Positions 1 through 63,165 of a stretch of DNA of 64,000 nt are shown piece after piece. The position numbers were made by a program, and so were the translations under genes. Each line of letters begins with the position of its first letter. The first letter of the stretch is position 1. Under the pieces are notes generated by a model. That model worked only from the letters and a program-made list of their open reading frames with translations. It made no database searches and was not told where the DNA came from. The stretch spans positions 1 through 64,000 of the forward strand of contig JAJEKV010000037.1 of assembly GCA_021234155.1 (NCBI GenBank), read 5' to 3'. The DNA is from Isoetes taiwanensis. Its lineage: Eukaryota; Streptophyta; Lycopodiopsida; Isoetales; Isoetaceae.

Positions 1-481
1 AATCTCAAGATAGTGTTGGAGTGTTCTTGAGTCATGCTCTACGTAATTCGCAGGTTCGACATTCCTTCCACCAGCCACTTTTAGGATGCCCCTTGTCCTA
101 TCTTAAAGCCATATATTTCGACGTAGGGCGCAATTCCAAAAGTATTTCATTGTCACAATTGCTTAGAATCTTCGATCGTGTCGATGTAGTATAGTGGTGA
201 GTATTCCCCCACCACACGGGTGACCCGGTTCGATCCCCCAAGATCGTAGCGCACTTTGGCCTAACTTGTCCAAAATAATGCATATATTCAAAATCGAGAT
301 CTTATATGCAAAATGAACTAAAAGATTCCTATTTAAGAGACGGTAGAGAAAAGAAGTTAGTATCGATTACACCGGATCTCGACGGTGTCGCCTAGTTCAT
401 CAAAACTATTTCAAGGACCTAGCTTTTAAGATATAGATAGCTTTCTAACCCAACCGGCTTTGATCTCAAGCTCCATAAACC
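1..481 (+). repeat. Unit 0, partial (left window edge), B locus only
   Basis: This is the 3' part of a unit. It aligns to the stretch between loci A and B and then B. B lies at 180-251 with core CCCACCACACGGG and a damaged 3' end. Bases 1-130 carry many more insertions and changes than the same stretch in any later unit. The left-block marker TATATGCAAAATG is present. Confidence 0.93.
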
Positions 482-1706
482 ATGGCAACGCAATTGTCGA
501 AGACAAAGATCCATTCGCATCAAAAGGCTCTTAGAAAAAGCAATGCCTTTCTTTGGAACCCTATTGCATAGTTACGCAAAGCGGTCGCCTTTTGAGCCCT
601 TGTTATGCTTCCATCCATTTCTCACACATGCGGATGGAGTACGGCAATTGCCGTCTTTGCAACTAGATGCCCCCGACGGTTCCAACGGAGCAAAAATCAC
701 CTCCATCGGATCGGGCGGATGCAGAGATATGCCAAACCGGGTTAAGCTTCTAGTTATGGATGTCTCCGTCTTTAAATTTGTTTCTTTTTAGCGCCTTTTA
801 AGCAAGTCATATTTGAGTGCTTACCGAGGTTCCTTTTCATTGCCTTGCTTTTTGCCTCCCTCTTAATTTGCCTTCACTTAGGTCCCCTGGGCTAATTCAC
901 CAAAAGTTCATATTTCATAATTCGCCATCAAGGGATGCCTCCTTGTCATATTCAAAGCTATATTTTGACGAAACCATATACTTCAATAATATTCTCTTGT
1001 CACAATTGTTTTAAGTTTTCATCATGTCGATGTAGTATAGTGGTGAGTATTCCCGCACTGTCACGCTGGTGACCCGAAGTTCGATCCCCAAGATCGGCGT
1101 GTGATTTTTGTTCTATCTCGCTTAGTGCATATCTTTCCAAAAGTGTAGCACATGAATATGACTCCCACCCCTTAAAAGCTGTGTGTTATGACTCCTACCC
1201 CCTTCAAAGTTGTGTTAGAGTTTCTATAATGCCAATCTCGATAGTGTTGAGTGTTCTTGGTCATGCCTACAATTCGTTCGATTCCACCACCGCACGAGGA
1301 TGTGTCTCCTTGTCCTATTCAAAGCCATATTTCGACGAGGCTGCAATTCCAAAGTATTTCATTGTCACAATTGCGGTTAGAATCTAAGATCGTGTCGATG
1401 TAGTATAGTGGTGAGTATTCCCACCGCCACGCTGGTGACCCGGTTCGATCCCCTAAGATCGGGCGCAATTTTTGGCCTAACTTGTCCAAAATAATGCATA
1501 TATTCAAAATCGAGATCTTATATGCAAAATGAACTAAAAGATTCCTATTTAAGAGACGGTGACGAGAGAAAAGAAGTTAGTATCAGATTACACCGGGGAT
1601 CTGACGGTGTCAGCTAGTTCATCAAAACTATTTCAAGGACCTAGCTTTTAAGATATAGATAGCTTCTAACCCAACCGGGCTTTGGATCTCAAGCTCCGGG
1701 TAAACC
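482..1706 (+). repeat. Unit 1 (1,225 bp)
   Basis: A is at 1026-1099, core CGCACTGTCACGCTGG, T arm CCGAAGTTCG. B is at 1394-1465, core CACCGCCACGCTGG. Left-block markers CTCTTAG, TATATGC and CTTCTAAC are present. The usual ATCTTCGATCG before B reads ATCTAAGATCG here. Confidence 0.96.
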
Positions 1707-2943
1707 ATGGCAACGCAATTGTCGAAGACAGCATCCATTCAGATCAAAAGGCTCTTAGAAAAAGCAATGCCTTTCTTTGAACCCTATTGCATAGTTACGG
1801 TGTAAAAGCGGGTCGCCTTTGAGCCCTTGTTATGCTTCCATCCATTTCTCACACATGCGGATGGAGTACGCAATTGCCGATGGGATTCGCAACTAGATGC
1901 CCCGACGGTTCCAACGGAGCAAAAATCACCTCCATCGGATCGGGCGATGCAGAGATATGCCAAACCGGTTAAGCTTCTAGTTATGGATGTCTCCGTGTCT
2001 TTAAATTTGTTTCTTTTTTAGCGCCACTTTTTAAGCAAATATTTTGAGTGCTTACCGGAGGTTCCTTTCATTGCCTTGCTTTTTGCCTCCCTCTTAATTT
2101 GCCTTCACTTAGGTCCCCGGGGCTAATTCACCAAAAGTTCATATTTCATAATTCGGCCATCAAGGGATGCCTCCTTGTCATATTCAAAGCTATATTTTGA
2201 CGAAATGATACTTCAATAATATTCTCTTGTCACAATTGTTTTAAGTTTTCATCATGTCGATGTAGTATAGTGGTGAGTATTCCCGCCACACGCTGGTGAC
2301 CCGAAGTTCGATCCCCCTGATCGGGCGATTTTTGTTCTATCTCGCCTAGTGCATATCTTTCCAAAGTGTAGCACATGAATATGATGCTCCCACCCCTTAA
2401 AAGTCGTGGTGTTATGACTCCTACCCCTTCAAAGTTGTGTTAGAGTTTCTATAATGCCAATCTCGCGATAGTGTTGAGTGTTCTTGGTCATGCCGGGCGA
2501 CCCGCAGGTTCGATTCCACCACCGCACGAGGATGTGTCTCCTTGTCCTATTCAAAGCCATATTTCGACGAGGCTGCAATTCCAAAGTATTTCATTGTCAC
2601 AATTAATGTTAGAATCTTCGATCGTGGTCGATGTAGTATAGTGGTGAGTATTCCCACCACCACGCTGGTGACCCGGTTCGATCCCCAAGATCGGGCGCAA
2701 TTTTTGGCCTAACTTGTCCAAAATAATGCATATATTCAAAATCGAGATCTTATATGCAAAATGAACTAAAAGATTCCTATTTAAGAGACGGTGACGAGAG
2801 AAAAGAAGTTAGTATCAGATTACACCGGATCCGACTTTGCCCCCTGTCACCTAGTTCATCAAAACTATTTCAAGGACCTAGCTTTTAAGATATAGATAGC
2901 TTCTAACCCAACCGGGCTTTGGATCTCAAGCTCCGGGTAAACC
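1707..2943 (+). repeat. Unit 2 (1,237 bp)
   Basis: A is at 2256-2327, core CGCCACACGCTGG. B is at 2627-2697, core CACCACCACGCTGG. Left-block markers CTCTTAG, GTTAAGC, TATATGC and CTTCTAAC are present. The end of the unit has the odd form GATCCGACTTTGCCCCCTG in place of the usual GACGGTGTCAG. Confidence 0.97.
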
Positions 2944-4197
2944 ATGGCAACGCAATTGTCGAAGACAGCATCCATTCAGATCAAAAGGCTCTTAGAAAAA
3001 GCAATGCCTTTCTTTGGAACCCTATTGCATAGTTACGGTGTAAAAAGCGGTCGTCTTTGAGCCCTTGTTATGCTTCCATCCATTTCTCACACATGCGGAT
3101 GGAGTACGGCAATTGCCGATGGGATTCGGCAACTAGACGCCCTGACGGTTCCAACGGAGCAAAAATCACCTCCATCGGACCGGCGGATGCAGAGATATGC
3201 CAAACTGAAGTTAAGCTTCTAGTTATGGATGTCTCCGTGTCTTTAAATTTGTTTCTTTTTTTAGCGCGCCTTTTAAGCAGTCATATTTGAGTGCTTACCG
3301 GAGGTTCCTTTCATTGCCTTGCTTCCTTTCATTGCCTTGCTTTTTGCCTCCCTCTTAATTTGCCTTCACTTAGGTCCCCGGGCTAATTCACCAAAAGTTC
3401 ATATTTCATAATTCGGCCATCAAGGGATGCCTCCTTGTCATATTCAAAGCTATATTTTGGCGAAATGATACTTCAATAATATTCTCTTTGTCACAATTGC
3501 TCTTAAGTTTTCATCATGTCGATGTAGTATAGTGGTGAGTATTCCCGCCAGTCACGCGGGTGACCCGAGTTCGATCCCCGCATCGGCGCGATTTTTTGTT
3601 CTATCTCGCCTAGTGCATATCTTTCCAAAAAGTGTAGCACATGAATATGATGACTCCCACCCCTTAAAAGTCGGTGTTATGACTCCTACCCCTTCAAAGT
3701 TGTGTTAGAGTTTCTATAATGCCAATCTCGCATAGTGTTGAGTGTTCTTGGTCATGCCTACACCCGTTCGATTCCACCACCGCACGAGGATGTGTCTCCT
3801 TGTCCTATTCAAAGCCATATTTCGACGAGGCTGCAATTCCAAAGTATTTCATTGTCACAATTGCGTTAGAATCTTCGATCGTGGTCGATGTAGTATAGTG
3901 GTGAGTATTCCCACCGTCACGCTGGTGACCCGGTTCGATCCCCAAGATCGGGCGCAATTTTTGGCCTAACTTGTCCAAAAATAATGCATATATTCAAAAT
4001 CGAGATCTTATATGCAAAATGAACTAAAAGATTCCTATTTAAGAGACTGACGACGAGAAAAAGAAGTTAGTATCGATTATTACACCGGGATCCGACGGTG
4101 TCAGTCGCCTAGTTCATCAAAACTATTTCAAGGACCTAGCTTTTAAGATATAGATAGCTTTAAACCCAACCGGCTTTGATCTCAAGCTCCGTAAACC
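2944..4197 (+). repeat. Unit 3 (1,254 bp)
   Basis: A is at 3518-3588, nearly intact, core CGCCAGTCACGCGGG. B is at 3884-3954, core CACCGTCACGCTGG. The first 600 bases are in the 'clean' state (AGACAGCATCC, GACGCCCTGACGG). CCTTTCATTGCCTTGCTT is duplicated near 3306-3340, a slippage event not seen in its neighbours. Confidence 0.97.
3518..3588 (+). pseudogene. tRNA-Asp-like, locus A of unit 3, nearly intact
   Basis: Two differences from the A form: the loop reads CAGTCAC (U33 replaced by A) and one G is missing before CATCGGCG. U33 is needed for the anticodon U-turn, so as written it would not work well. Confidence 0.7.
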
Positions 4198-5429
4198 ATG
4201 GCAACGCAATTGTCGAAGACAAAGATCCATTCAGATCAAAAGGCTCTAGAAAAAGCAATGCCTTTCTTTGGAACCCTATTGCATAGTTACGGTGTAAAAA
4301 GCGGTCGCCTTTTGAGCCCTTTGTTATGCTTCCATCCATTTCTCACACATGCGGATGGAGTACGGCAATTGCCGATGGGATTCGCAACTAGATCCTCGAC
4401 GGTTCCAACGGAGCAAAAATCACCTCCATCGATCGGCGGATGCAGAGATATGCCAAACCGGGTTAAGCTTCTAGTTATGGATGTCTCCGTGTCTTTAAAT
4501 TTGTTTCTTTTTTTTAGCCGCTTTTAAGCAAATATTTTTGAGTGCTTACCGGAGGTTCCTTTCATTGCCTTGCTTTTTGCCTCCCTCTTAATTTGCCTTC
4601 ACTTAGGTCCCTGGGCTAATTCACCAAAAGTTCATATTTCATAATTCGTCATCAAGGGATGCCTCCTTGTCATATTCAAAGCTATATTTTGGCGAAATAC
4701 TTCAATAATATTCTCTTGTCACAATTGCTCTTAAGTTTTCATCATGTCGATGTAGTATAGTGGTGAGTATTCCCGCCTGACCACGCGGGTGACCCGAGTT
4801 CGATCCCCGGCATCGGCGTGATTTTTGTTCTATCTCGCCTAGTGCATATCTTTCCAAAGTGTAGCACATGAATATGACTCTCCCACCCCTTAAAAGTCGT
4901 GGTGTTATGACTCCTACCCCTTCAAAGTTGTGTTAGAGTTTCTATAATGCCAATCTCGCATAGTGTTGAGTGTTCTTGGTCATGCCTACGAACCGCGTTC
5001 GATTCCACCACCGCATCGAGGATGTGTCTCCTTGTCCTATTCAAAGCCATATTTCGACGAGGCTGCAATTCCAAAGTATTTCATTGTCACAATTGCGTTT
5101 AGAATCTTCGATCGTGGTCGATGTAGTATAGTGGTGAGTATTCCCACTGCCACGCTGGTGACCCGGTTCGATCCCCTAAGATCGGGCGCAATTTTTGGCC
5201 TAACTTGTCCAAAATAATGCATATATTCAAAATCGAGATCTTATATGCAAAATGAACTAAAAGATTCCTATTTAAGAGACGGTGACGAGAGAAAAGAAGT
5301 TAGTATCAGATTACACCGGGGATCTGACGGTGTCAGCTAGTTCATCAAAACTATTTCAAGGACCTAGCTTTTAAGATATAGATAGCTTCTAACCCAACCG
5401 GGCTTTGGATCTCAAGCTCCGGGTAAACC
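4198..5429 (+). repeat. Unit 4 (1,232 bp)
   Basis: A is at 4746-4818, nearly intact, core CGCCTGACCACGCGGG. B is at 5117-5188, core CACTGCCACGCTGG. Unlike units 1-3 and 5-7 it has CTCTAG instead of CTCTTAG, and its start is in the degenerate state (AGACAAAGATCC). Confidence 0.97.
4746..4818 (+). pseudogene. tRNA-Asp-like, locus A of unit 4, nearly intact
   Basis: Everything but the anticodon loop matches the A form. The loop reads CTGACCAC, eight bases without GTC. Confidence 0.7.
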
Positions 5430-6668
5430 ATGGCAACGCAATTGTCGAAGACAGCATCCATTCAGATCAAAAGGCTCTTAGAAAAAGCAATGCCTTTCTT
5501 TGGAACCCTATTGCATAGTTACGGTGTAAAAAGCGGTCGTCTTTGAGCCCTTGTTATGCTTCCATCCATTTCTCACACATGCGGATGGAGTACGGCAATT
5601 GCCGATGGGATTCGGCAACTAGACGCCCTGACGGTTCCAACGGAGCAAAAATCACCTCCATCGACCGGGCGGATGCAGAGATATGCCAAACTGAAGTTAA
5701 GCTTCTAGTTATGGATGTCTCCGTGTCTTTAAATTTGTTTCTTTTTTTAGCGCGCCTTTTAAGCAGTCATATTTGAGTGCTTACCGGAGGTTCCTTTCAT
5801 TGCCTTGCTTTTTGCCTCCCTCTTAATTTGCCTTCACTTAGGTCCCTGGGCTAATTCACCAAAAGTTCATATTTCATAATTCGTCATCAAGGGATGCCTC
5901 CTTGTCATATTCAAAGCTATATTTTGGCGAAATGATACTTCAATAATAATATTCTCTTGTCACAATTGTTTTAAGTTTTCATCATGTCGATGTAGTATAG
6001 TGGTGAGTATTCCCTACTCACACGCTGGTGACCCGAAGTTCGATCCCCAAGATCGGGCGTGATTTTTGTTCTATCTCGCCTAGTGCATATCTTTCCAAAG
6101 TGTAGCACATGAATATGACTCCCTCCCACCCCTTAAAAGTCGTGGTGTTATGACTCCTACCCCTTCAAAGTTGTGTTAGAGTTTCTATAATGCCAATCTC
6201 GCGATAGTGTTGAGTGTTCTTGGTCATGCCGGGCGAATTGTTTCGATTCCACCACCGCACGAGGATGTGTCTCCTTGTCCTATTCAAAGCCATATTTCGA
6301 CGAGGCTGCAATTCCAAAGTATTTCATTGTCACAATTGCGTTAGAATCTTCGATCGTGGTCGATGTAGTATAGTGGTGAGTATTCCCACCACCACGCTGG
6401 TGACCCGGTTCGATCCCCTAAGATCGGGCGCAATTTTTGGCCTAACTTGTCCAAAATAATGCATATATTCAAAATCGAGATCTTATATGCAAAATGAACT
6501 AAAAGATTCCTATTTAAGAGACGGTGACGAGAGAAAAAAGAAGTTAGTATCGATTACACCGGATCTGACGGTGTCGCTTAGTTCATCAAAACTATTTCAA
6601 GGACCTAGCTTTTAAGATATAGATAGCTTCTAACCCAACCGGCTTTGATCTCAAGCTCCGTAAAAACC
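5430..6668 (+). repeat. Unit 5 (1,239 bp)
   Basis: A is at 5986-6059, core CTACTCACACGCTGG. B is at 6359-6430, core CACCACCACGCTGG. The first half is clean-state and nearly identical to units 3 and 7. An extra AAT lengthens the AATAATATTC run before A. Confidence 0.97.
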
Positions 6669-7903
6669 ATGGCAACGCAATTGTCGAAGACAAAGATCCA
6701 TTCAGATCAAAAGGCTCTTAGAAAAAGCAATGCCTTTCTTTGGAACCCTATTGCATAGTTACGGTGTAAAAAGCGGTCGCCTTTTGAGCCCTTTGTTATG
6801 CTTCCATCCATTTCTCACACATGATGGAGTACGGCAATTGCCGATGGGATTCGCAACTAGATGCCCGACGGGTTCCAACGGAGCAAAAATCACCTCCATC
6901 GACCGGGCGGATGCAGAGATATGCCAAACCGGTTAAGCTTCTAGTTATGGATGTCTCCGTGTCTTTAAATTTGTTTCTTTTTAGCGCCTTTTAAGCAAAT
7001 ATTTTGAGTGCTTACCGGAGGTTCCTTTCATTGCCTTGCTTTTTGCCTCCCTCTTTAATTTGCCTTCACTTAGGTCCCTCGGGCTAATTCACCAAAAGTT
7101 CATATTTCATAATTGGCCATCAAGGGATGCCTCCTTGTCATATTCAAAGCTATATTTTGACGAAATGATACTTCAATAATAATATTCTCTTGTCACAATT
7201 GCTCTTAAGTTTTCATCATGTCGATGTAGTATAGTGGTGAGTATTCCCGCCTGTCACGCGGGTGACCCGAGTTCGATCCCCGGCATCGGCGTGATTTTTG
7301 TTCTATCTCGCCTAGTGCATATCTTTCCAAAGTGTAGCACATGAATATGACTGACTCCCACCCCTTAAAAGCTGTGTGTTATGACTCCTACCCCCTTCAA
7401 AGTTGTGTTAGAGTTTCTATAATGCCAATCTCGCATAGTGTTGAGTGTTCTTGGTCATGCCTACGAATTCGTGTTCGATTCCACCACCGCACGAGGATGT
7501 GTCTCCTTGTCCTATTCAAAGCCATATTTCGACGAGGCTGCAATTCCAAAGTATTTCATTGTCACAATTGCGGTTAGAATCTTCGATCGTGTCGATGTAG
7601 TATAGTGGTGAGTATTCCCACCACACGCTGGTGACCCGGTTCGATCCCCCTAAGATCGGGCGCAATTTTTGGCCTAACTTGTCCAAAATAATGCATATAT
7701 TCAAAATCGAGATCTTATATGCAAAATGAACTAAAAGATTCCTATTTAAGAGACAGTGACGAGAGAAAAGAAGTTAGTATCAGATTACACCGGAGATCTG
7801 ACGGTGTCAGCTAGTTCATCAAAACTATTTCAAGGACCTAGCTTTTAAGATATAGATAGCTTCTAACCCAACCGGGCTTTGGATCTCAAGCTCCGGGTAA
7901 ACC
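6669..7903 (+). repeat. Unit 6 (1,235 bp)
   Basis: A is intact at 7220-7291. B is at 7591-7662, core CACCACACGCTGG. The half before A is degenerate-state (AGACAAAGATCC) while A itself is perfect, so the two states can change within one unit. The extra AAT before A is shared with unit 5. Confidence 0.97.
7220..7291 (+). tRNA. tRNA-Asp(GTC), locus A of unit 6
   Basis: Seventy-two nt, anticodon GTC in loop CTGTCAC, anticodon stem CCCGC/GCGGG, box A TAGTATAGTGGT, acceptor GTCGATG/CATCGGC, discriminator G, and TTTTT four bases downstream of the tRNA. The T stem reads CCGAG against CCCGG, leaving an A-C mismatch at 52-62, which also alters the first base of box B. Decoding of Asp codons GAC/GAU is inferred from the anticodon and the match to plant tRNA-Asp. 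The mismatch may lower function. Confidence 0.85.
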
Positions 7904-8831: not shown

Positions 8832-8903
8832 GTCGATGTAGTATAGTGGTGAGTATTCCCGCCTGTCACGCGGGTGACCCGGGTTCGATCCCCGGCATCG
8901 GCG
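8832..8903 (+). tRNA. tRNA-Asp(GTC), locus B of unit 7, intact
   Basis: All four stems pair fully: acceptor GTCGATG/CATCGGC, D stem GTAT/GTAT (with the D-arm non-Watson-Crick pairs usual for this tRNA), anticodon stem CCCGC/GCGGG, T stem CCGGG/CCCGG. Loop CTGTCAC has anticodon GTC. Box B is GGTTCGATCCC. No intron and no encoded CCA, as expected for a nuclear gene. A Pol III terminator T5 follows after CAA. Confidence 0.95.
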
Positions 8904-11565: not shown

Positions 11566-12796
11566 ATGGCAACGCAATTGTCGAAGACAAAGATCCATTC
11601 AGATCAAAAGGCTCTAGAAAAAGCAATGCCTTTCTTTGGAACCCTATTGCATAGTTACGGTAAAAAAAGCGGTCGCCTTTGAGCCCTTGTTATGCTTCCA
11701 TCCATTTCTCACACATGCGATGGAGTACGGCAATTGCCGCATGGGATTCGCAACTAGATGCCCCGACGGTTCCAACGGAGCAAAAATCACCTCCATCGGA
11801 TCGGGCGGATGCAGAGATATGCCAAACCAAGTTAAGCTTCTAGTTATGGATGGATGTCTCCGTGTCTTTAAATTTGTTTTTTTTTTAGCGCACCTTTTTA
11901 GGCAAATATATTTGAGTGCTTACCGAGGTTCCTTTCATTGCCTTGCTTTTTGCCTCCCTCTTAATTTGCCTTCACTTAGGTCCATGGGCTAATTCACCAA
12001 AAGTTCATATTTCATAATTCGCCATCAAGGGATGCCTCCTTGTCATATTCAAAGCTATATTTTGACGAAATGATACTTCAATAATATTCTCTTGTCACAA
12101 TTGCTCTTAAGTTTTCATCATGTCGATGTAGTATAGTGGTGAGTATTCCCACCGCCACGCTGGTGACCCGAAGTTCGATCCCCAAGATCGGGCGTGATTT
12201 TTGTTCTATCTCGCCTAGTGCATATCTTTCCAAAGTGTAGCACATGAATATGACTCCCACCCCTTAAAAGCTGTGTGTTATGACTCCTACCCCCTTCAAA
12301 GTTGTGTTAGAGTTTCTATAATGCCAATCTCGCATAGTGTTGAGTGTTCTTGGTCATGCCGGCACCCGTGTTCGATTCCACCACCGCACGAGGATGTGTC
12401 TCCTTGTCCTATTCAAAGCCATATTTCGACGAGGCTGCAATTCCAAAGTATTTCATTGTCACAATTGCGGTTAGAATCTTCGATCGTGGTCGATGTAGTA
12501 TAGTGGTGAGTATTCCCGCCTGTCACGCGGGTGACCCGGGTTCGATCCCCGGCATCGGCGCAATTTTTGGCCTAACTTGTCCAAAATAATGCATATATTC
12601 AAAATCGAGATCTTATATTCAAAATGAACTAAAAGATTCCTATTTAAGAGACGGTGACGAGAAAAAGAAGTTAGTATCGATTACACCGGATCCGACGGTG
12701 TCGTCACTAGTTCATCAAAACTATTTCAAGGACCTAGCTTTTAAGATATAGATAGCTTCCAACCCAACCGGCTTTGATCTCAAGCTCCCGTAAACC
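11566..12796 (+). repeat. Unit 10 (1,231 bp)
   Basis: A is at 12122-12194, core CACCGCCACGCTGG. B is intact at 12489-12560. First unit with GGTCCATGGG in place of GGTCCCTGGG, but it still has CTTAATTTG, GTTAAGC and CACAATTG. GATG is duplicated near 11850. It forms the transition into the central block. Confidence 0.97.
12489..12560 (+). tRNA. tRNA-Asp(GTC), locus B of unit 10, intact
   Basis: Identical over 72 nt to the unit 7 B copy. The 5' flank reads GATCGTG directly before the GTCGATG acceptor strand. CAATTTTTGG follows. Confidence 0.95.
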
Positions 12797-29732: not shown

Positions 29733-29804
29733 GTCGATGTAGTATAGTGGTGAGTATTCCCGCCTGTCACGCGGGTGACCCGAGTTCGATCCCCGGCATC
29801 GGCG
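29733..29804 (+). tRNA. tRNA-Asp(GTC), locus A of unit 24
   Basis: Same as the unit 6 A copy, including T stem CCGAG/CCCGG with its A-C mismatch. It lies 366 bp upstream of an intact B copy, so this unit has both loci at full length. Confidence 0.86.
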
Positions 29805-29812: not shown

Positions 29813-30098
29813 GTTCTATCTCGCCTAGTGCATATCTTTCCAAAGTGTAGCACATGAATATGACTCCCACCCCTTAAAAGCTGTGTGTTATGACTCCTAC
29901 CCCCTTCAAAGTTGTGTTAGAGTTTCTATAATGCCAATCTCGCATAGTGTTGAGTGTTCTTGGTCATGCCGGCGACCCGTGTTCGATTCCACCACCGCAC
30001 GAGGATGTGTCTCCTTGTCCTATTCAAAGCCATATTTCGACGAGGCTGCAATTCCAAAGTATTTCATTGTCACAATTGCGGTTAGAATCTTCGATCGT

Positions 30099-30170
30099 GT
30101 CGATGTAGTATAGTGGTGAGTATTCCCGCCTGTCACGCGGGTGACCCGGGTTCGATCCCCGGCATCGGCG
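30099..30170 (+). tRNA. tRNA-Asp(GTC), locus B of unit 24, intact
   Basis: Identical to the unit 7 B copy. The terminator T run is at 30174-30178. The 88 bp before it, back to CTCCTTGTCC, are the conserved B-type 5' flank. Confidence 0.95.
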
Positions 30171-30411: not shown

Positions 30412-31661
30412 ATGGCAACGCAATTGTCGAAGACAGCATCCATTCAGATCAAAAGGCTCTAGAAAAAAAGCAATGCCTTTTTTGGAACCCTATTGCATAG
30501 TTACGGTGTACAAAGCGGTCGCCTTTGAGCCCTTGTTATGCTTCCATCCATTTCTCACACATGCGATGGAGTACGGCAATTGCCGCCGGATTCGCAACTA
30601 GATGCCCCGACGGTTCCAACGGAGCAAAAAATCACCTCCATCGGATCGGGCGGATGCAGATATATGCCAAACCGTCAAGCTTCTAGTTATGGATGTCTCC
30701 GTGCCTTTTAAATTTGTTTCTTTTTTTAGCGCACCTTTTAGGCAAAATATATTTGAGTGCTTACCGAGGTCCCTTTCATTGCCTTGAGTGCTTACCTTTC
30801 CTTTCATTGCCTTGCTTTTTGCCTCCCTCTTCATTTGCCTTCACTTAGGTCCATGGGCTAATTCACCAAAAGTTCATATTTCATAATTCGGCCATCAAGG
30901 GATGCCTCCTTGTCATATTCAAAGCTATATTTTGACGAAATGATACTTCAATAATATTCTCTTGTCACAAATGCTCTTAAGTTTTCATCATGTCGATGTA
31001 GTATAGTGGTGAGTATTCCCGCCACCACGCTGGTGACCCGGTTCGATCCCCGCATCGGGCGTGATTTTTGTTCTATCTCGCCTAGTGCATATCTTTCCAA
31101 AGTGTAGCACATGAATATGACTCCCACCCCTTAAAAGTCGTGGTGTTATGACTCCTACCCCTTCAAAGTTGTGTTAGAGTTTCTATAATGCCAATCTCGC
31201 ATAGTGTTGAGTGTTCTTGGTCATGCCTACAATCTGTTCGATTCCACCACCGCATCTAGGATGTGTCTCCTTGTCCTATTCAAAGCCATATTTCGACGAG
31301 GCTGCAATTCCAAAGTATTTCATTGTCACAATTGCGTTAGAATCTTTGATCGTGGTCGATGTAGTATAGTGGTGAGTATTCCCGCCTGTCACGCGGGTGA
31401 CCCGGGTTCGATCCCCGGCATCGGCGCAATTTTTGGCCTAACTTGTCCAAAATAATGCATATATTCAAAATCGAGATCTTATATTCAAAATGAACTAAAA
31501 GATTCCTATTTAAGAGACGGTGACGAGAGAAAAGAAGTTAGTATCAGATTACACCGGGGATCTGACGGTGTCAGCTAGTTCATCAAAACTATTTCAAGGA
31601 CCTAGCTTTTAAGATATAGATAGCTTCCAACCCAACCGGCTTTGATCTCAAGCTCCAAACC
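30412..31661 (+). repeat. Unit 25 (1,250 bp)
   Basis: A is at 30992-31061, core CGCCACCACGCTGG. B is intact at 31355-31426. Its first 15 codons are clean-state. The C of a CG just upstream of B reads T at 31347. Confidence 0.97.
31355..31426 (+). tRNA. tRNA-Asp(GTC), locus B of unit 25, intact
   Basis: Identical to the unit 7 B copy over 72 nt. The 5' flank carries a private C-to-T change at 31347 (ATCTTTGATCG). Confidence 0.95.
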
Positions 31662-34145: not shown

Positions 34146-35409
34146 ATGGCAACGCAATTGTCGAAGACAAAGATCCATTCAGATCAAAAGGCTCTAGAAA
34201 AAGCAATGCCTTTCTTTGGAACCCTATTGCATAGTTACGGTGTACAAAGCGGTCGCCTTTTGAGCCCTTTGTTATGCTTCCATCCATTTCTCACACATGC
34301 GGATGGAGTACGGCAATTGCCGCTGGGATTCGCAACTAGATGCCCCGACGGTTCCAACGGAGCAAAAATCACCTCCATCGGACCGGGGATGCAGATATGC
34401 CAAACCGGTCAAGCTTCTAGTTATGGATGTCTCCGCGTTTTAAATTTGTTTCTTTTTAGCGCACCTTTTAGGCAAATCATTTTGAGTGCTTACCGAGGTC
34501 CCTTTCATTGCCTTGAGTGCTTACCGGAGGTTCCTTTCATTGCCTTGCTTTTTGCCTCCCTCTTCATTTGCCTTCACTTAGGTCCATGGGCTAATTCACC
34601 AAAAGTTCATATTTCATAATTCGGCCATCAAGGGATGCCTCCTTGTCATATTCAAAGCTATATTTTGACGAAATGATACTTCAATAATATTCTCTTGTCA
34701 CAATTGCTCTTAAGTTTTCATCATGTCGATGTAGTATAGTGGTGAGTATTCCCACCACACCACGCTGGTGACCCGGTTCGATCCCCCCCGATCGGGCGAT
34801 TTTTGTTCTATCTCGCCTAGTGCATATCTTTCCAAAGTGTAGCACATGAATATGACTCCCACCCCTTAAAAGTCGTGGTGTTATGACTCCTACCCCTTCA
34901 AAGTTGTGTTAGAGTTTCTATAATGCCAATCTCGCATAGTGTTGAGTGTTCTTGGTCATGCCGGCAATTCCCGTTTCGATTCCACCACCGCAAGACGAGG
35001 ATGTGTCTCCTTGTCCTATTCAAAGCCATATTTCGACGAGGCTGCAATTCCAAAGTATTTCATTGTCACAATTGCGTTAGAATCTTCGATCGTGGTCGAT
35101 GTAGTATAGTGGTGAGTATTCCCGCCTGTCACGCGGGTGACCCGGGTTCGATCCCCGGCATCGGCGCAATTTTTGGCCTAACTTGTCCAAAATAATGCAT
35201 ATATTCAAAATCGAGATCTTATATTCAAAATGAACTAAAAGATTCCTATTTAAGAGACGGTGACGAGAGAAAAGAAGTTAGTATCAGATTACACCGGATC
35301 TCGACGGTTGTGTCGCCTAGTTCATCAAAACTATTTCAAGGACCTAGCTTTTAAGATATAGATAGCTTCCAACCCAACCGGGCTTTGGATCTCAAGCTCC
35401 GGGTAAACC
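34146..35409 (+). repeat. Unit 28 (1,264 bp)
   Basis: A is at 34725-34798, core CACCACACCACGCTGG. B is intact at 35095-35166. Last unit with the standard 32-bp duplication. CACAATTG before A. Degenerate-state indels join frames here into a 157-codon opening that I do not regard as a gene. Confidence 0.97.
35095..35166 (+). tRNA. tRNA-Asp(GTC), locus B of unit 28, intact
   Basis: Identical to the unit 7 B copy. The A copy of the same unit (34725-34798) is degenerate, so intactness is not a property of the whole unit. Confidence 0.95.
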
Positions 35410-40379: not shown

Positions 40380-41600
40380 ATGGCAACGCAATTGTCGAAG
40401 ACAGCATCCATTCAGATCAAAAGGCTCTAGAAAAAGCAATGCCTTTCTTTGGAACCCTATTGCATAGTTACGGTGTACAAAGCGGTCGCCTTTTGAGCCC
40501 TTTGTTATGCTTCCATCCATTTCTCACACATGCGGATGGAGTACGGCAATTGCCGATGGGATTCGCAAACTAGATGCCCCGACGGTTCCAACGGAGCAAA
40601 AATCACCTCCATCGGATCGGGCGGATGCAGATATGCCAAACCGGGTTAAGCTTCTAGTTATGGATGTCTCCGTGTCTTTAAATTTGTTTCTTTTTTAGCG
40701 CACCTTTTAGGCAAATATTTTTTGAGTGCTTACCGAGGTTCCTTTCATTGCCTTGCTTTTTGCCTCCCTCTTTAATTTGCCTTCACTTAGGTCCATGGGC
40801 TAATTCACCAAAAGTTCATATTTCATAATTCGTCATCAAGGGATGCCTCCTTGTCATATTCAAAGCTATATTTTGACGAGCCGATACTTCAATAATATTC
40901 TCTTGTCACAATTGCTCTTAAGTTTTCATCATGTCGATGTAGTATAGTGGTGAGTATTCCCGCCTGTCACGCGGGTGACCCGGGTTCGATCCCCGGCATC
41001 GGCGTGATTTTTGTTCTATCTCGCCTAGTGCATATCTTTCCAAAGTGTAGCACATGAATATGACTCCCACCCCTTAAAAGCTGTGTGTTATGACTCCTAC
41101 CCCCTTCAAAGTTGTGTTAGAGTTTCTATAATGCCAATCTCGCATAGTGTTGAGTGTTCTTGGTCATGCCGGCGACCCGTGTTCGATTCCACCACCGCAC
41201 GAGGATGTGTCTCCTTGTCCTATTCAAAGCCATATTTCGACGAGGCTGCAATTCCAAAGTATTTCATTGCCACAATTGCGGTTAGAATCTTCGATCGTGT
41301 CGATGTAGTATAGTGGTGAGTATTCCCACCACCACGCTGGTGACCCGGTTCGATCCCCGATCGGGCGCAATTTTTGGCCTAACTTGTCCAAAATAATGCA
41401 TATATTCAAAATCGAGATCTTATATTCAAAATGAACTAAAAGATTCCTATTTAAGAGACGGTGAGAGAGAAAAGAAGTTAGTATCGATTACACCGGATCC
41501 GACGGTGTCGCCTAGTTCATCAAAACTATTTCAAGGACCTAGCTTTTAAGATATAGATAGCTTCCAACCCAACCGGCTTTGATCTCAAGCTCCGTAAACC
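40380..41600 (+). repeat. Unit 33 (1,221 bp)
   Basis: A is intact at 40933-41004 and has the B-type T stem. B is at 41299-41367, core CACCACCACGCTGG. The central-block marker GTACAAAG occurs within an otherwise right-block unit (GTTAAGC, ATTGCCAC). Confidence 0.97.
40933..41004 (+). tRNA. tRNA-Asp(GTC), locus A of unit 33, B-type T stem
   Basis: The only complete A-position gene with T stem CCGGG/CCCGG and box B GGTTCGATCCC, so the tRNA is identical to B genes while both flanks stay A-type (CATCAT before, TGATTTTTG after). A B-to-A conversion tract, or survival of the ancestral base, would explain it. Confidence 0.93.
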
Positions 41601-43397: not shown

Positions 43398-43469
43398 GTC
43401 GATGTAGTATAGTGGTGAGTATTCCCGCCTGTCACGCGGGTGACCCGAGTTCGATCCCCGGCATCGGCG
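43398..43469 (+). tRNA. tRNA-Asp(GTC), locus A of unit 35
   Basis: Full length, A-type T stem. Followed 364 bp later by an intact B copy, so unit 35 resembles unit 24 in having both. Confidence 0.86.
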
Positions 43470-43761: not shown

Positions 43762-43833
43762 GTCGATGTAGTATAGTGGTGAGTATTCCCGCCTGTCACG
43801 CGGGTGACCCGGGTTCGATCCCCGGCATCGGCG
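43762..43833 (+). tRNA. tRNA-Asp(GTC), locus B of unit 35, intact
   Basis: Identical to the unit 7 B copy. The 5' flank is of the right-block type (ATTGCCACAATTAAGTG). Confidence 0.95.
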
Positions 43834-44071: not shown

Positions 44072-45292
44072 ATGGCAACGCAATTGTCGAAGACAAAGAT
44101 CCATTCAGATCAAAAGGCTCTAGAAAAAGCAATGCCTTTCTTTGAACCCTATTGCATAGTTACGGTGTAAAAGCGGTCGCCTTTTGAGCCCTTGTTATGC
44201 TTCCATCCATTTCTCACATGCGATGGAGTACGGCAATTGCCGATGGGATTCGCAACTAGATGCCCCGACGGTTCCAACGGAGCAAAAATCACCTCCATCG
44301 GATCGGGCGGATGCAGAGATATGCCAAACCGGTTAAGCTTCTAGTTATGGATGTCTCCGTGTCTTTAAATTTGTTTCTTTTTTTTACCTTTTTAAGCAAA
44401 TATTTGAGTGCTTACCTTGAGGTTCCTTTCATTGCCTTGCTTTTTTGCCTCCCTCTTAATTTGCCTTCACTTAGGTCCATGGGCTAATTCACCAAAAGTT
44501 CATATTTCATAATTCGTCATCAAGGGATGCCTCCTTGTCATATTCAAAGCTATATTTTGACGAAATGATACTTCAATAATATTCTCTTGTCACAATTGTT
44601 TTTAAGTTTTCATCATGTCGATGTAGTATAGTGGTGAGTATTCCCACCACACGCTGGTGACCCGGTTCGATCCCCCCAAGATCGGGCGTGATTTTTGTTC
44701 TATCTCGCCTAGTGCATATCTTTCCAAAGTGTAGCACATGAATATGACTCCCACCCCTTAAAAGCTGTGTGTTATGACTCCTACCCCCTTCAAAGTTGTG
44801 TTAGAGTTTCTATAATGCCAATCTCGCATAGTGTTGAGTGTTCTTGGTCATGCCGGCGACCCGTGTTCGATTCCACCACCGCACGAGGATGTGTCTCCTT
44901 GTCCTATTCAAAGCCATATTTCGACGAGGCTGCAATTCCAAAGTATTTCATTGCCACAATTGCGGTTAGAATCTTCGATCGTGTCGATGTAGTATAGTGG
45001 TGAGTATTCCCGCCTGTCACGCGGGTGACCCGGGTTCGATCCCCGGCATCGGCGCAATTTTTGGCCTAACTTGTCCAAAATAATGCATATATTCAAAATC
45101 GAGATCTTATATTCAAAATGAACTAAAAGATTCCTATTTAAGAGACGGTGACGAGAGAAAAAGAAGTTAGTATCGATTACACCGGGATCCGACGGTGTCG
45201 CCTAGTTCATCAAAACTATTTCAAGGACCTAGCTTTTAAGATATAGATAGCTTCCAACCCAACCGGCTTTGATCTCAAGCTCCGTAAAAACC
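44072..45292 (+). repeat. Unit 36 (1,221 bp)
   Basis: A is at 44617-44688, core CACCACACGCTGG. B is intact at 44983-45054. Right-block markers with CCATGGG. Confidence 0.97.
44983..45054 (+). tRNA. tRNA-Asp(GTC), locus B of unit 36, intact
   Basis: Identical to the unit 7 B copy. With unit 35 B this gives two intact B genes in successive units, as in units 24 and 25. Confidence 0.95.
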
Positions 45293-56439: not shown

Positions 56440-57690
56440 ATGGCAACGCAATTGTCGAAGACAAAGATCCATTCAGATCAAAAGGCTCTAGAAAAAGCAA
56501 TGCCTTTCTTTGGAACCCTATTGCATAGTTACGGTGTAAAAGCGGTCGCCTTTGAGCCCTTGTTATGCTTCCATCCATTTCACACACATGGATGGAGTAC
56601 GGCAATTGCCGCCGGATTCGCAACTAGATGCCCCGACGGTTCCAACGGAGCAAAAATCACCTCCATCGGATCGGGCGATGCAGAGATATGCCAAACCGGG
56701 TTAAGCTTCTAGTTATGGATGTCTCCGTGTCTTTAAATTTGTTTCTTTTTTTAGCGCACCTTTTAGGCAGTCATATTTGAGTGCTTACCGGAGGTTCCTT
56801 TCATTGCCTTGCTTTTTTCATTGCCTTGCTTTTTGCCTCCCTCTTAATTTGCCTTCACTTAGGTCCATGGGCTAATTCACCAAAAGTTCATATTTCATAA
56901 TTCGCCATCAAGGGATGCCTCCTTGTCATATTCAAAGCTATATTTTGACGAAATTTTATACTTCAAATAATATTCTCTTGTCACAATTGCTCTTAAGTTT
57001 TCATCATGTCGATGTAGTATAGTGGTGAGTATTCCCACCGCCACGCTGGTGACCCGAAGTTCGATCCCCCAAGATCGGCGTGATTTTTGTTCTATCTCGC
57101 CTAGTGCATATCTTTCCAAAGTGTAGCACATGAATATGACTCCCACCCCTTAAAAGTCGTGGTGTTATGACTCCTACCCCTTCAAAGTTGTGTTAGAGTT
57201 TCTATAATGCCAATCTCGCATAGTGTTGAGTGTTCTTGGTCATGCCGGGTACGACCCGTGTTCGATTCCACCACCGCACGAGGATGTGTCTCCTTGTCCT
57301 ATTCAAAGCCATATTTCGACGAGGCTGCAATTCCAAAGTATTTCATTGTCACAATTATGTTTAGAATCTTCGATCGTGTCGATGTAGTATAGTGGTGAGT
57401 ATTCCCGCCTGTCACGCGGGTGACCCGGGTTCGATCCCCGGCATCGGCGCAATTTTTGGCCTAACTTGTCCAAAATAATGCATATATTCAAAATCGAGAT
57501 CTTATATTCAAAATGAACTAAAAGATTCCTATTTAAGAGACGGTGACGAGAGAAAAGAAGTTAGTATCAGATTACACCGGGGATCTGACGGTGTCAGCTA
57601 GTTCATCAAAACTATTTCAAGGACCTAGCTTTTAAGATATAGATAGCTTCTAACCCAACCGGGCTTTGGATCTCAAGCTCCGGGTAAACC
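56440..57690 (+). repeat. Unit 46 (1,251 bp)
   Basis: A is at 57008-57080, core CACCGCCACGCTGG. B is intact at 57378-57449. ATTGTCAC returns before B and CTTCTAAC returns at the end. A tandem copy of TTGCCTTGCTTTTT lies near 56805-56832. Confidence 0.97.
57378..57449 (+). tRNA. tRNA-Asp(GTC), locus B of unit 46, intact
   Basis: Identical to the unit 7 B copy. It is the last complete gene before the array end; the next two clean copies are truncated. Confidence 0.95.
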
Positions 57691-58911
57691 ATGGCAACGC
57701 AATTGTCGAAGACAGCATCCATTCAGATCAAAAGGCTCTAGAAAAAGCAATGCCTTTCTTTGGAACCCTATTGCATAGTTACGGTGTAAAAAGCGGTCGT
57801 CTTTGAGCCCTTGTTATGCTTCCATCCATTTCTCACACATGCGGATGGAGTACGGCAATTGCCGATGGGATTCGGCAACTAGACGCCCTGACGGTTCCAA
57901 CGGAGCAAAAATCACCTCCATCGGACCGGCGGATGCAGAGATATGCCAAACCGAAGTTAAGCTTCTAGTTATGGATGTCTCCGTGTCTTTAAATTTGTTT
58001 CTTTTTTTAGCGCGCCTTTTAAGCAGTCATATTTGAGTGCTTACCGGAGGTTCCTTTCATTGCCTTGCTTTTTGCCTCCCTCTTAATTTGCCTTCACTTA
58101 GGTCCCTGGGCTAATTCACCAAAAGTTCATATTTCATAATTCGTCATCAAGGGATGCCTCCTTGTCATATTCAAAGCTATATTTTGACGAGCCGATACTT
58201 CAATAATATTCTCTTGTCACAATTGCTCTTAAGTTTTCATCATGTCGATGTAGTATAGTGGTGAGTATTCCCGCCTGTCACGCGGGTGACCCGGGTTCGA
58301 TCTGATTTTTGTTCTATCTCGCCTAGTGCATATCTTTCCAAAGTGTAGCACATGAATATGACTCCCACCCCTTAAAAGCTGTGTGTTATGACTCCTACCC
58401 CCTTCAAAGCTGTGTTAGAGTTTCTATAATGCCAATCTCGCATAGTGTTGAGTGTTCTTGGTCATGCCTTGGCGACCCGTTCGATTCCACCACCACCGCA
58501 CGAGGATGTGTCTCCTTGTCCCTATTCAAAGCCATATTTCGACGAGGCTGCAATTCCAAAGTATTTCATTGTCACAATTGCGTTAGAATCTTCGATCGTG
58601 GGTCGATGTAGTATAGTGGTGAGTATTCCCGCCGCCACACGCTGGTGACCCGGTTCGATCCCCTAAGATCGGGCGCAATTTTTGGCCTAACTTGTCCAAA
58701 ATAATGCATATATTCAAAATCGAGATCTTATATGCAAAATGAACTAAAAGATTCCTATTTAAGAGACGGTGACGAGAGAAAAGAAGTTAGTATCAGATTA
58801 CACCGGGGATCTGACGGTGTCAGCTAGTTCATCAAAACTATTTCAAGGACCTAGCTTTTAAGATATAGATAGCTTCTAACCCAACCGGCTTTGATCTCAA
58901 GTCCGTAAACC
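57691..58911 (+). repeat. Unit 47 (1,221 bp), left-block-like
   Basis: A is truncated at 58244-58302. B is at 58602-58675, core CGCCGCCACACGCTGG. It carries left-block markers TATATGC and CTTCTAAC far from the left block, and shares AAGCTGTG (58410) with unit 41. Confidence 0.97.
58244..58302 (+). pseudogene. tRNA-Asp fragment, locus A of unit 47, 3' end deleted
   Basis: Bases 1-59 are perfect, with the B-type CCGGG T stem. The last 13 nt (CCCGGCATCGGCG) are missing, and the downstream TGATTTTTG follows directly. The 3' T-stem and acceptor strands are gone, so no tRNA can fold. Confidence 0.9.
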
Positions 58912-59476
58912 ATGGCAACGCAATTGTCGAAGACAGCATCCATTCAGATCAAAAGGCTCTTAGAAAAAGCAATGCCTTTCTTTGGAACCCTATTGCATAG
59001 TTACGGTGTAAAAAGCGGTCGTCTTTGAGCCCTTGTTATGCTTCCATCCATTTCTCACACATGCGGATGGAGTACGGCAATTGCCGATGGGATTCGCAAA
59101 CTAGATGCCCCTCGACGGTTCCAACGGAGCAAAAATCACCTCCATCGGATCGGGCGGATGCAGAGATATGCCAAACCGGTTAAGCTTCTAGTTATGGATG
59201 TCTCCGTGTCTTTAAATTTGTTTCTTTTTTTTGAGCTTACCGGAGGTCCTTTTAGGCAGCCATATTTGAGTGCTTACCGAGGTTCCTTTTCATTGCCTTG
59301 CTTTTTGCCTCCCTCTTAATTTGCCTTCACTTAGGTCCCCGGGCTAATTCACCAAAAGTTCATATTTCATAATTCGTCATCAAGGGATGCCTCCTTGTCA
59401 TATTCAAAGCTATATTTTGGCGAGCCGATACTTCAATAATATTATCTTGTCACAATTGCTCTTAAGTTTTCATCAT

Positions 59477-59548
59477 GTCGATGTAGTATAGTGGTGAGTA
59501 TTCCCGCACTGTCACGCGGGTGACCCGGTTCGATCCCCGCATCGGGCG
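59477..59548 (+). pseudogene. tRNA-Asp-like, locus A of unit 48
   Basis: The core is CGCACTGTCACGCGGG: anticodon GTC and the 3' stem strand are kept, with one base inserted in the 5' strand. The T arm is CCGGTTCG and the 3' end CGCATCGGGCG. Confidence 0.65.
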
Positions 59549-59843
59549 TGATTTTTGTTCTATCTCGCCTAGTGCATATCTTTCCAAAGTGTAGCACATG
59601 AATATGACTCCCACCCCTTAAAAGTCGTGGTGTTATGACTCCTACCCCCTTCAAAGTTGTGTTAGAGTTTCTATAATGCCAATCTCGCATAGTGTTGAGT
59701 GTTCTTGGTCATGCCGGCGACCCGTGTTTGATTCCACCACCGCACGAGGATGTGTCTCCTTGTCCTATTCAAAGCCATATTTCGATGAGGCTGCAATTCC
59801 AAAGTATTTCATTGCCACAATTGCGGTTAGAATCTTCGATCGT

Positions 59844-59906
59844 GTATAGTGGTGAGTATTCCCGCCTGTCACGCGGGTGACCTGGGTTCGATCCCCGGCA
59901 TCGGCG
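59844..59906 (+). pseudogene. tRNA-Asp fragment, locus B of unit 48, 5' end deleted
   Basis: Starts at the D arm: GATCGTGT is joined to ATAGTGG, losing nine bases (CGATGTAGT) between two GT dinucleotides. The rest is full B type apart from C-to-T at 59883 in the T stem. The 5' acceptor strand and half of box A are gone. Confidence 0.9.
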
Positions 59907-60147
59907 CAATTTTTGGCCTAACTTGTCCAAAATAATGCATATATTCAAAATCGAGATCTTATATTCAAAATGAACTAAAAGATTCCTATTTAAGAGACGG
60001 TGACGAGAGAAAAGAAGTTAGTATCAGATTACACCGGGGATCTGACGGTGTCGGCTAGTTCATCAAAACTATTTCAAGGACCTAGCTTTTAAGATATAGA
60101 TAGCTTCCAACCCAACCGGGCTTTGGATCTCAAGCTCCGGGTAAACC

Positions 60148-61373
60148 ATGGCAACGCAATTGTCGAAGACAGCATCCATTCAGATCAAAAGGCTCTAGAA
60201 AAAGCAATGCCTTTCTTTGGAACCCTATTGCATAGTTACGGTGTAAAAAGCGGTCGTCTTTGAGCCCTTGTTATGCTTCCATCCATTTCTCACACATGCG
60301 GATGGAGTACGGCAATTGCCGCTGGGATTCGGCAACTAGATGCCCTGACGGTTCCAACGGAGCAAAAATCACCTCCATCGGACCGGCGGATGCAGAGATA
60401 TGCCAAACTGAAGTTAAGCTTCTAGTTATGGATGTCTCCGTGTCTTTAAATTTGTTTCTTTTTTTTAGCCACCTTTTAGGCAAATATATTTGAGTGCTTA
60501 CCGAGGTTCCTTTCATTGCCTTGCTTTTTGCCTCCCTCTTCATTTGCCTTCACTTAGGTCCATGGGCTAATTCACCAAAAGTTCATATTTCATAATTCGT
60601 CATCAAGGGATGCCTCCTTGTCATATTCAAAGCTATATTTTGACGAGCCGATACTTCAATAATATTCTCTTGTCACAATTGCTCTTAAGTTTTCATCATG
60701 TCGATGTAGTATAGTGGTGAGTATTCCCGTCTGTCACGCGGGTGACCCGAGTTCGATCCCCGGCATCGGGCGTGATTTTTGTTCTATCTCGCCTAGTGCA
60801 TATCTTTCCAAAGTGTAGCACATGAATATGACTCCCACCCCTTAAAAGTCGTGTGTTATGACTCCTACCCCTTCAAAGTTGTGTTAGAGTTTCTATAATG
60901 CCAATCTCGATAGTGTTGAGTGTTCTTGGTCATGCCGGGCGCACCCGTTTTCGATTCCACCACCGCGACGAGGATGTGTCTCCTTGTCCTATTCAAAGCC
61001 ATATTTCGACGAGGCTGCAATTCCAAAGTATTTCATTGTCACAATTGCGTTAGAATCTTCGATCGTGGTCGATGTAGTATAGTGGTGAGTATTCCCCGTC
61101 ACGCTGGTGACCCGGTTCGATCCCCTAAGATCGGGCGCAATTTTTGGCCTAACTTGTCCAAAATAATGCATATATTCAAAATCGAGATCTTATATTCAAA
61201 ATGAACTAAAAGATTCCTATTTAAGAGACGGTGACGAGAGAAAAGAAGTTAGTATCGATTACACCGGATCCGACGGTCGTCGCCTAGTTCATCAAAACTA
61301 TTTCAAGGACCTAGCTTTTAAGATATAGATAGCTTCCAACCCAACCGGCTTTGATCTCAAGCTCCCGTAAACC
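60148..61373 (+). repeat. Unit 49 (1,226 bp)
   Basis: A is nearly intact at 60700-60772. B is at 61068-61137, core CCGTCACGCTGG. TTCATTTG and CCATGGG (central-type) return, with GTAAAAG and GTTAAGC (right/left type) and no internal duplication. Confidence 0.97.
60700..60772 (+). pseudogene. tRNA-Asp-like, locus A of unit 49, nearly intact
   Basis: The core is CGTCTGTCACGCGGG: the anticodon is intact and one stem base is changed from C to T. An extra G stands near the 3' end (CATCGGGCG). Confidence 0.7.
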
Positions 61374-62611
61374 ATGGCAACGCAATTGTCGAAGACAAAG
61401 ATCCATTCAGATCAAAAGGCTCTAGAAAAAGCAATGCCTTTCTTTGGAACCCTATTGCATAGTTACGGTGTAAAAAGCGGTCGCCTTTTGAGCCCTTGTT
61501 ATGCTTCCATCCATTTCTCACATGCGGATGGAGTACGGCAATTGCCGCCGGGATTCGCAACTAGATGCCCCGACGGTTCCAACGGAGCAAAAATCACCTC
61601 CATCGGATCGGGATGATGAGATATGCCAAACCGGGTTAAGCTTCTAGTTATGGATGTCTCCGTGTCTTTAAATTTGTTTCTTTTTTTTAGCGCCTTTTAG
61701 GGCATTCTCATTTTTGAGCTTACCAGGTATTTTTGAGTGCTTACCGGAGGTTCCTTTCATTGCCTTGCTTTTTGCCTCCCTCTTCATTTGCCTTCACTTA
61801 GGTCCATGGGCTAATTCACCAAAAGTTCATATTTCATAATTGGCCATCAAGGGATGCCTCCTTGTCATATTCAAAGCTATATTTTGACGAGCCGATACTT
61901 CAATAATATTCTCTTGTCACAATTGTTCTTAAGTTTTCATCATGTCGATGTAGTATAGTGGTGAGTATTCCCCGCCACGCTGGTGACCCGGTTCGATCCC
62001 CGATCGGGCGATTTTTGTTCTATCTCGCCTAGTGCATATCTTTCCAAAGTGTAGCACATGAATATGACTCCCACCCCTTAAAAGTCGTGGTGTTATGACT
62101 CCTACCCCTTCAAAGTTGTGTTAGAGTTTCTATAATGCCAATCTCGCATAGTGTTGAGTGTTCTTGGTCATGCCGGCACCGCGTTTCGATTCCACCACCG
62201 CGACGAGGATGTGTCTCCTTGTCATATTCAAAGCCATATTTCGACGAGGCTGCAATTCCAAAGTATTTCATTGTCACAATTGCGTTAGAATCTTCGATCG
62301 TGGTCGATGTAGTATAGTGGTGAGTATTCCCCGTCCACGCTGGTGACCCGGTTCGATCCCCGCAGATCGGGCGCAATTTTTGGCCTAACTTGTCCAAAAT
62401 AATGCATATATTCAAAATCAAGATCTTATATTCAAAATGAACTAAAAGATTCCTATTTAAGAGACGGTGACGAGAGAAAAGAAGTTAGTATCAGATTACA
62501 CCGGGGATCTGACGGTGTCAGCTAGTTCATCAAAACTATTTCAAGGACCTAGCTTTTAAGATATAGATAGCTTCCAACCCAACCGGCTTTGATCTCAAGC
62601 TCCCGTAAACC
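61374..62611 (+). repeat. Unit 50 (1,238 bp), last complete unit
   Basis: A is at 61944-62010, core CCGCCACGCTGG. B is at 62303-62373, core CCGTCCACGCTGG. Near 62224 the B segment reads GTCATATTC, the A-segment base, where all other B segments have GTCCTATTC. The T-rich spot holds an insert (GGGCATTCTCATTTTTGAGC). Confidence 0.97.
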
Positions 62612-63165
62612 ATGGCAACGCAATTGTCGAAGACAAAGATCCATTCAGATCAAAAGGCTCTAGAAAAAGCAATGCCTTTTCTTTGGAACCCTATTGCATA
62701 GTTACGGTACAAAGCGGTCGCCTTTGAGCCCTTTGTTATGCTTCCATCCATTTCTCACACATGCAGATGGAGTACGGCAATTGCCGCTGGGATTTGGCAA
62801 CTAGATGCCCTGACGGTTCCAACGGAGCAAAAATCACCTCCATCGGACCGGCGGATGCAGAGATATGCCAAACTGAAGTCAAGCTTCTAGTTATGGATGT
62901 CTCCGCGCCTTTAAATTTGTTTCTTTTTTAGCACCTTTTTGAGTGCATATTTGAGGTCCCTTTCCCATTGCCTTGAGTGCTTACCGGGTTCCTTTCATTG
63001 CCTTGCTTTTTGCCTCCCTCTTCATTTGCCTTCACTTAGGTCCATGGGCTAATTCACCAAAAGTTCATATTTCATAATTCGGCCATCAAGGGATGCCTCC
63101 TTGTCATATTCAAAGCTATATTTTGACGAAATCGATACTTCAATAATATTCTCTTGTCACAAATG
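62612..63165 (+). repeat. Unit 51, partial (array right end)
   Basis: Homology stops after CTTGTCACAAATG at 63165, about 22 bases before locus A would start, so no tRNA is present. It has central-block markers: GTACAAAG, GTCAAGC, TTCATTTG, CCATGGG, CACAAATG and a degenerate internal duplication, although the units just before it are of the right type. Confidence 0.95.

Follow-up and report, generated by a model that had tools for sequence, protein, structure and literature searches.

In Arabidopsis, transfer RNA (tRNA) genes form two nuclear clusters, the SYY (Ser-Tyr-Tyr) cluster and the tRNA-Pro cluster, which are cited with 27 repeats each (PMC11700998). The SYY cluster is reported to be CG/CHG methylated and quiet in most tissues, and to be transcribed in root-tip cells (PMC12308677). 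Arabidopsis Cys clusters are described as variable between ecotypes (PMC10701932). From other plants, a maize tRNA-Ile cluster of 28 genes and moss tRNA-Ile/Cys clusters of 26, 18 and 14 identical genes are reported. Here we analyse a stretch of 64,000 nt from the quillwort Isoetes taiwanensis (assembly GCA_021234155.1, contig JAJEKV010000037.1, here C1042), which carries a tandem array of tRNA-Asp(GTC) loci. The stretch, called the window in the following, is the opening 64 kb (C1042:1-64000) of a contig of 14,713,235 bases, and its left edge is the contig start. The assembly examined comprises 1,658,258,908 bases in 1,110 contigs. The reading that we consider likely is that of a recently amplified tRNA-gene macrosatellite whose broken copies are mostly nanopore errors and which is probably methylated and mostly quiet.

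Like the Arabidopsis SYY and Pro clusters, the quillwort array is a head-to-tail repeat of nuclear tRNA genes in one orientation, all of its 261 loci lying on the plus strand. Intact genes in the repeats and a terminator for RNA polymerase III are to be expected of a plant cluster of the SYY/Pro type. In the quillwort array 40 loci are identical to the intact gene, and the rest, as argued below, appear to be misread; a TTTT terminator is found at 255 of 259 loci. The Arabidopsis clusters differ in that they consist of other isotypes and have no dimeric Asp unit. The maize and moss clusters share with it the tandem arrangement of a single isotype, but all of them are smaller. Outside plants, Entamoeba is described as having tRNA genes in long tandem arrays whose units are uniform (PMC2652664). 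According to that account nearly all tRNA genes of Entamoeba are arrayed and short tandem repeats lie between the genes, whereas in the quillwort Asp genes also occur dispersed (13 exact matches). The human tRNA macrosatellite at 1q23.3 is likewise a many-copy tandem repeat with tRNA genes, Asp included (PMC4041453). It is reported to have a GC-rich unit of 7.3 kb, five tRNA genes on both strands, 9-43 units and CTCF binding, in contrast to the unit of 1.24 kb with one isotype on one strand in the quillwort.

The initial annotation had supposed that an Asp array with a dimeric unit was undescribed. In agreement with this, a literature search directed at tRNA, with supplementary tables outside its scope, found no Asp array of this kind, and the I. 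taiwanensis paper (PMC8566536) uses none of the words tRNA, tandem and satellite in its main text. Clusters with as many as 110 non-identical tRNA genes are reported in a survey of 50 species (PMC12652284). Since section 3.5 of that survey leaves their isotype unnamed, a rival of the size of the window may already sit in its supplement.

The loci were located by a scan with the array's own 72-nt tRNA-Asp sequence as the query, with a threshold of at least 80 (maximum 144) for the window. At this threshold 101 tRNA-Asp(GTC)-like loci were found, all on the plus strand, while the best minus-strand score was 28/144 and the best score in one shuffled window was 24. The loci are arranged in 50 pairs, each of a locus A and a locus B, with a single B locus at the left edge. 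Thus a unit of about 1.24 kb carries two loci; the 49 complete units measured in the window are 1,170-1,268 bp long. The scan and the unit lengths bear out what the initial annotation had read from the window, namely about 51 units of 1.24 kb with 101 tRNA-Asp loci in one direction. As assembled, the window yielded 23 loci with ARAGORN (21 Asp, 1 Val, 1 undetermined) and 20 with Rfam. The sequence of the intact gene is reproduced exactly at nine of the 101 loci, and five further loci deviate from it by G51A alone. A protein-coding unit was rejected; the longest stop-to-stop frame in one unit has 94 amino acids, with no family search run on such frames.

Array DNA on C1042 extends over positions 84-63,165, begins again at 97,444 and runs through several inserts to 245,797. 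An end of the array at 63,165 was rejected, since this site is an insertion with a 5-bp target duplication behind which the array restarts. A second block lies on contig C1103 (C1103:4,060,131-4,070,409), about 13 kb short of that contig's right end. At a score of at least 70 the scan found 261 loci, 245 on C1042 and 16 on C1103. The right edge of the array (241-246 kb) holds eight loci, which are divergent copies, one of them exact.

For the genome as a whole, the initial annotation had proposed a count of Asp(GTC) genes and had suspected that one site could hold far more of them than a genome usually needs. An exact 21-mer gave 249 matches genome-wide (241 forward, 8 reverse). Thirteen of these are dispersed, 11 in the GGTAAG form and 2 with GGTGAG (on C423 and C571), and by subtraction 236 belong to the array. 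The concentration at one site is supported by these numbers; in the assembly as it stands most loci are not intact genes, for which assembly error is a better explanation than decay. As the 21-mer counts are exact-match counts, they are lower bounds for the array and for the dispersed group. All genome-wide counts given here rest on exact patterns; searches with unit DNA recovered only part of the known copies, and a genome-wide tRNA family search, in which 63 of 99,865 candidates were scored, yields no totals.

The two loci of the unit go back to an old duplication. Three A/B pairs, chosen from exact gene copies, agree in their upstream flanks at 76-77 of 96-99 aligned bases, gaps aside. Among all loci, the intact A genes comprise 12 exact ones and 7 that differ by G51A only, and the intact B genes are exact throughout (25/25). 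If the gene had drifted at the flank rate (0.78 per base), the chance of a 72/72 match would be about 2e-8 and that of at most one difference about 4e-7, independent sites being assumed. With no more than one base of difference between an intact A and an intact B gene, against an identity of about 78% in the flanks, the gene body was thus conserved. Selection before the amplification, or conversion limited to the gene, would explain this identity. Between A and B there is a third, decayed tRNA-like relic, which the initial annotation does not mention; it scored 40-57 and at that threshold was found in 25 of the 50 pairs.

The TTTT terminator lies within 15 nt downstream of the array loci (two loci at the edges of sequence pieces were left out of the count), as it does at 10 of the 13 dispersed genes. 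For flowering plants, CAA motifs upstream of the genes are described as regulatory elements (PMC11700998). Within 12 nt upstream, CAA was found at 11 of the 13 dispersed genes, in contrast to 0/255 anchored array loci. The idea that the array genes are weak for want of an upstream CAA was nevertheless dropped, since within 30 nt the motif is present at 254 of 255 array loci. The array gene has an A5-U68 acceptor pair, which 6 of the 13 dispersed matches share, and U5 is found in 7/13. GTCGATG combined with GGTGAG is the array form; none of the 13 dispersed matches carries both. Single-strand fold energies were uninformative (z -0.8 to -1.5). Two dispersed Asp loci, 384 bp apart and without a T-run terminator, were noticed at C908:3726700-3728200. 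One of them has a TTTGTC change like many array loci, which may be an error or the mark of a real pseudogene.

Why, then, do most copies look broken? The edit distances of the 261 loci to the intact gene are bimodal, with 40 exact loci, 70 within two edits, 16 at 3-5 edits and a mode at 8-10. Per position, the deviation amounts to 0.083 near CG/CHG sites versus 0.026 elsewhere, and the median pairwise difference is 10.2% near these sites versus 2.7% away from them. Many AT-rich blocks of 25 bp show a deviation of 0.00 across 49 units. The damage is of two types, alpha and beta, to which each locus was assigned by majority rule over a few motifs. To the left of a run of 13 N at C1042:145,100-145,112 there are 138 loci, of which 99 are alpha, none is beta and 39 are clean or tied. 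For the 115 loci to the right of this run (to 241 kb) or on C1103 the picture is reversed: 72 are beta, 1 is alpha and 42 are clean or tied. The 5S ribosomal RNA (rRNA) genes of the same assembly served as a control. Of 68 copies counted at a score of at least 110 of 238, nine were exact, and most of the others carried many edits, in a broad mode. A living plant can hardly have 5S genes that are mostly broken to this degree.

For the published version 1 of the I. taiwanensis genome, R9.4.1 nanopore reads, miniasm, racon and pilon, Bionano scaffolding and gap-filling with LR_Gapcloser are described (PMC8566536). Methylation differences are reported as likely to reduce the accuracy of nanopore basecalling in plants (PMC9749173), and in the literature on nanopore errors we found no description of exactly the kind of error seen in the tRNA-Asp array. 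That most of the broken-looking tRNA-Asp loci are uncorrected nanopore errors is well supported, albeit indirectly, and therefore most of the real copies are probably intact. In the 24 indel-free loci with one to three substitutions, C>T or G>A make up 28 of the 33 substitutions (8 of 13 distinct ones), an excess that is expected of methylated cytosines. Judged by this excess and by the errors near CG/CHG sites, neither of which is proof, the array is probably methylated.

A different interpretation is that the array is real but a satellite of pseudogenes, in which most copies are truly decayed relics and the genes number only a few dozen. It would account for the 221 of 261 loci that as assembled are not exact, for the 23 of 101 loci called by ARAGORN in the window, for the genuine third relic within the unit and for the substitutions in the edge copies at 241-246 kb. 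Several further points count against the favoured reading. The number of exact copies in the assembled sequence is low (40/261), and away from CG/CHG sites the pairwise difference still remains at 2.7%. Clean or tied loci are numerous on both sides of the 13-N run (39 and 42), and the switch in damage type is not absolute, as the TTTGTC change, a mark of the right-hand loci, also occurs in 3 of the 138 loci left of the join. Because the flank pairs were picked among exact copies, gene identity in them is by choice. At seven intact A loci G51A disrupts a pair of the T stem, and some of the A genes may therefore really be impaired. Yet decay does not fit heterogeneous, bimodal damage in units that also contain many invariant AT-rich blocks, nor a damage type that switches at the 13-N join, nor 5S rRNA genes of the same assembly that look equally broken (9/68 exact). 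On the 5S control and the switch at the join, ordinary decay as the cause of the broken loci was set aside; it stays as a rival, but an unlikely one.

The array could also be real but comprise far fewer copies, which unmerged overlaps and alleles multiplied in the assembly. To the right of the 13-N run lies 4.9 kb of insert sequence that matches C1042:104,970-109,817 at 81.5%, and then array again; because of this match, the assembly may contain the 34 loci of 109.8-145.1 kb in duplicate. A 13-N run in a Bionano scaffold is presumably the mark of overlapping contigs, and the run at 145.1 kb is probably such an unmerged overlap. On C1103 the junction of array and insert is the same as at C1042:63,165, and the C1103 block could be allelic, overlapping or duplicated sequence. 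Thus up to 50 loci (the 34 and the 16 on C1103) may have been counted twice, and the locus number may lie between 211 and 261. However, 211 loci are left even after both sets are removed, and the window by itself has 101 loci in one unbroken run. A drastically inflated array is therefore quite improbable.

It is hardly credible that the unit is a non-autonomous long terminal repeat element with a tRNA-derived promoter (Helenus/TRIMp3 type) or a short interspersed element, tandemly piled: such elements are reported with tRNA-like sequence, one of them in tandem arrays in zebrafish (PMC10886601), and Cassandra in tandem arrays in plants (PMC7215508), but of the 127 genome-wide matches of a spacer 30-mer (126 forward, 1 reverse) 125 are in the array, one forward match is unplaced, and the reverse match, on C985, is no whole element but a 256-bp fragment between 78-bp direct repeats. 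As no dispersed full copies were found in this search, a dispersed mobile element of the Helenus or Cassandra type was rejected. The fragment, which lies within C985:9046000-9051999, comprises half a tRNA and spacer, is 93.5% identical to the array, and suggests that array DNA was once copied to another site.

Elements have inserted into the array itself. The 34-kb insert after 63,165 has AAATG on both flanks and the termini TG...CA, and an 11-kb insert at 98.9 kb has a duplication of 5 to 6 bp. In both, frames with matches to integrase and reverse transcriptase were found. Of the 27 frames of at least 150 amino acids, two of which lie within array DNA, eight were searched against Pfam. Three of the eight matched at the curated cut-off (two integrase, one reverse transcriptase), two matched under it (an integrase on C1103 and a Ty3 capsid) and three had no match. 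A 4.4-kb insert occurs seven times in C1042:118451-183348, at a unit phase of 1,075-1,117, and its copies are 79-98% alike despite the noise. Seven like copies at nearly the same unit phase indicate that a single insertion was probably amplified with the array.

The favoured reading of a recently amplified macrosatellite would imply the following course of events. A stretch with a tRNA-Asp(GTC) gene would have been duplicated long ago, giving a unit with the genes A and B and a third copy that decayed. This functional dimer would then have been amplified recently, presumably by unequal exchange, until one region held more than 200 genes, and the elements would have inserted into the array and in part been amplified together with it. 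By analogy with the clustered Arabidopsis tRNA genes, we infer that the array may be methylated and mostly quiet and would be at most a conditional source of tRNA-Asp. Its silence is thus a conclusion by analogy. The features are listed in Table 1.

Table 1. Features of the tRNA-Asp array in the window, and the 5S rRNA arrays used as control (positions refer to the window unless a contig is given)
Feature	Position	Strand	Evidence or remark
tRNA-Asp array, window part, 50 A/B pairs and one B	84..63165	+	goes on, interrupted, to ~C1042:245,797
Locus B, exact intact	8832..8903	+	scan, Rfam
Locus B, exact intact	12489..12560	+	scan, Rfam
Locus A, example, intact except G51A (T-stem mismatch)	29733..29804	+	ARAGORN, scan, Rfam 55.3 bits
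Third, decayed tRNA-like relic between A and B, example	29930..30001 (start approximate)	+	scan score 49/144
Locus B, example, exact intact tRNA-Asp(GTC), then T run	30099..30170	+	ARAGORN, scan, Rfam 60.9 bits
Locus B, exact intact	31355..31426	+	scan, Rfam
Locus B, exact intact	35095..35166	+	scan, Rfam
Locus A, exact intact, sole exact A of the window	40933..41004	+	scan, Rfam
Locus B, exact intact; partner A (43398-43469) intact except G51A	43762..43833	+	scan, Rfam
Locus B, exact intact	44983..45054	+	scan, Rfam
Locus B, exact intact	57378..57449	+	scan, Rfam
34-kb retrotransposon-like insert (C1042:63,166-97,443), left end	63166..64000	.	flanking 5-bp duplication AAATG
5S rRNA arrays	C13:282500-305500 and C907:40703200-40709900		edits mostly of the same CG-centred kind

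Other tRNA genes of the genome are arrayed as well. At C1079:4,789,000-4,797,000 there is a tandem repeat whose unit, about 921 bp long, carries Thr(CGT)-Arg(TCT)-Thr(AGT)-Arg(TCT) genes. Exact matches to an Arg(TCT) 23-mer number 256 in the whole genome, many of them on C526, C1066 and C1079; TTTT within 15 nt downstream was found at none of the 10 Arg loci tested. Clusters of apparently intronless tRNA-Ile(TAT) genes are located at C1018:5045300-5048000 and C1101:12900-15500, and an Ile(TAT) 19-mer has 36 exact matches genome-wide. For I. sinensis, 8,975 annotated tRNA genes are reported (PMC10541799), which fits tRNA arrays in the genus. A larger reading would be that, much as in Entamoeba, several tRNA families of a land plant (Asp, Thr-Arg-Thr-Arg, Ile) have been moved into arrays of satellite scale, and that the Asp array is an intact, chromatin-controlled reserve which is opened in particular cells for Asp-rich proteins. 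This we regard as distinctly unlikely.

The array is remarkable for its isotype, its scale and its host, while its relatives are already known. If read depth confirms its size, it would be several times the size of the plant tRNA clusters of named isotype in the literature covered, and its host is a lycophyte, a lineage outside the flowering-plant survey. It also serves as a warning that in unpolished nanopore repeats intact tRNA and 5S genes can take on the look of pseudogenes. Since transcripts of the array should be distinguishable by GTCGATG together with GGTGAG, the use or silence of giant tRNA arrays is directly testable in this plant.

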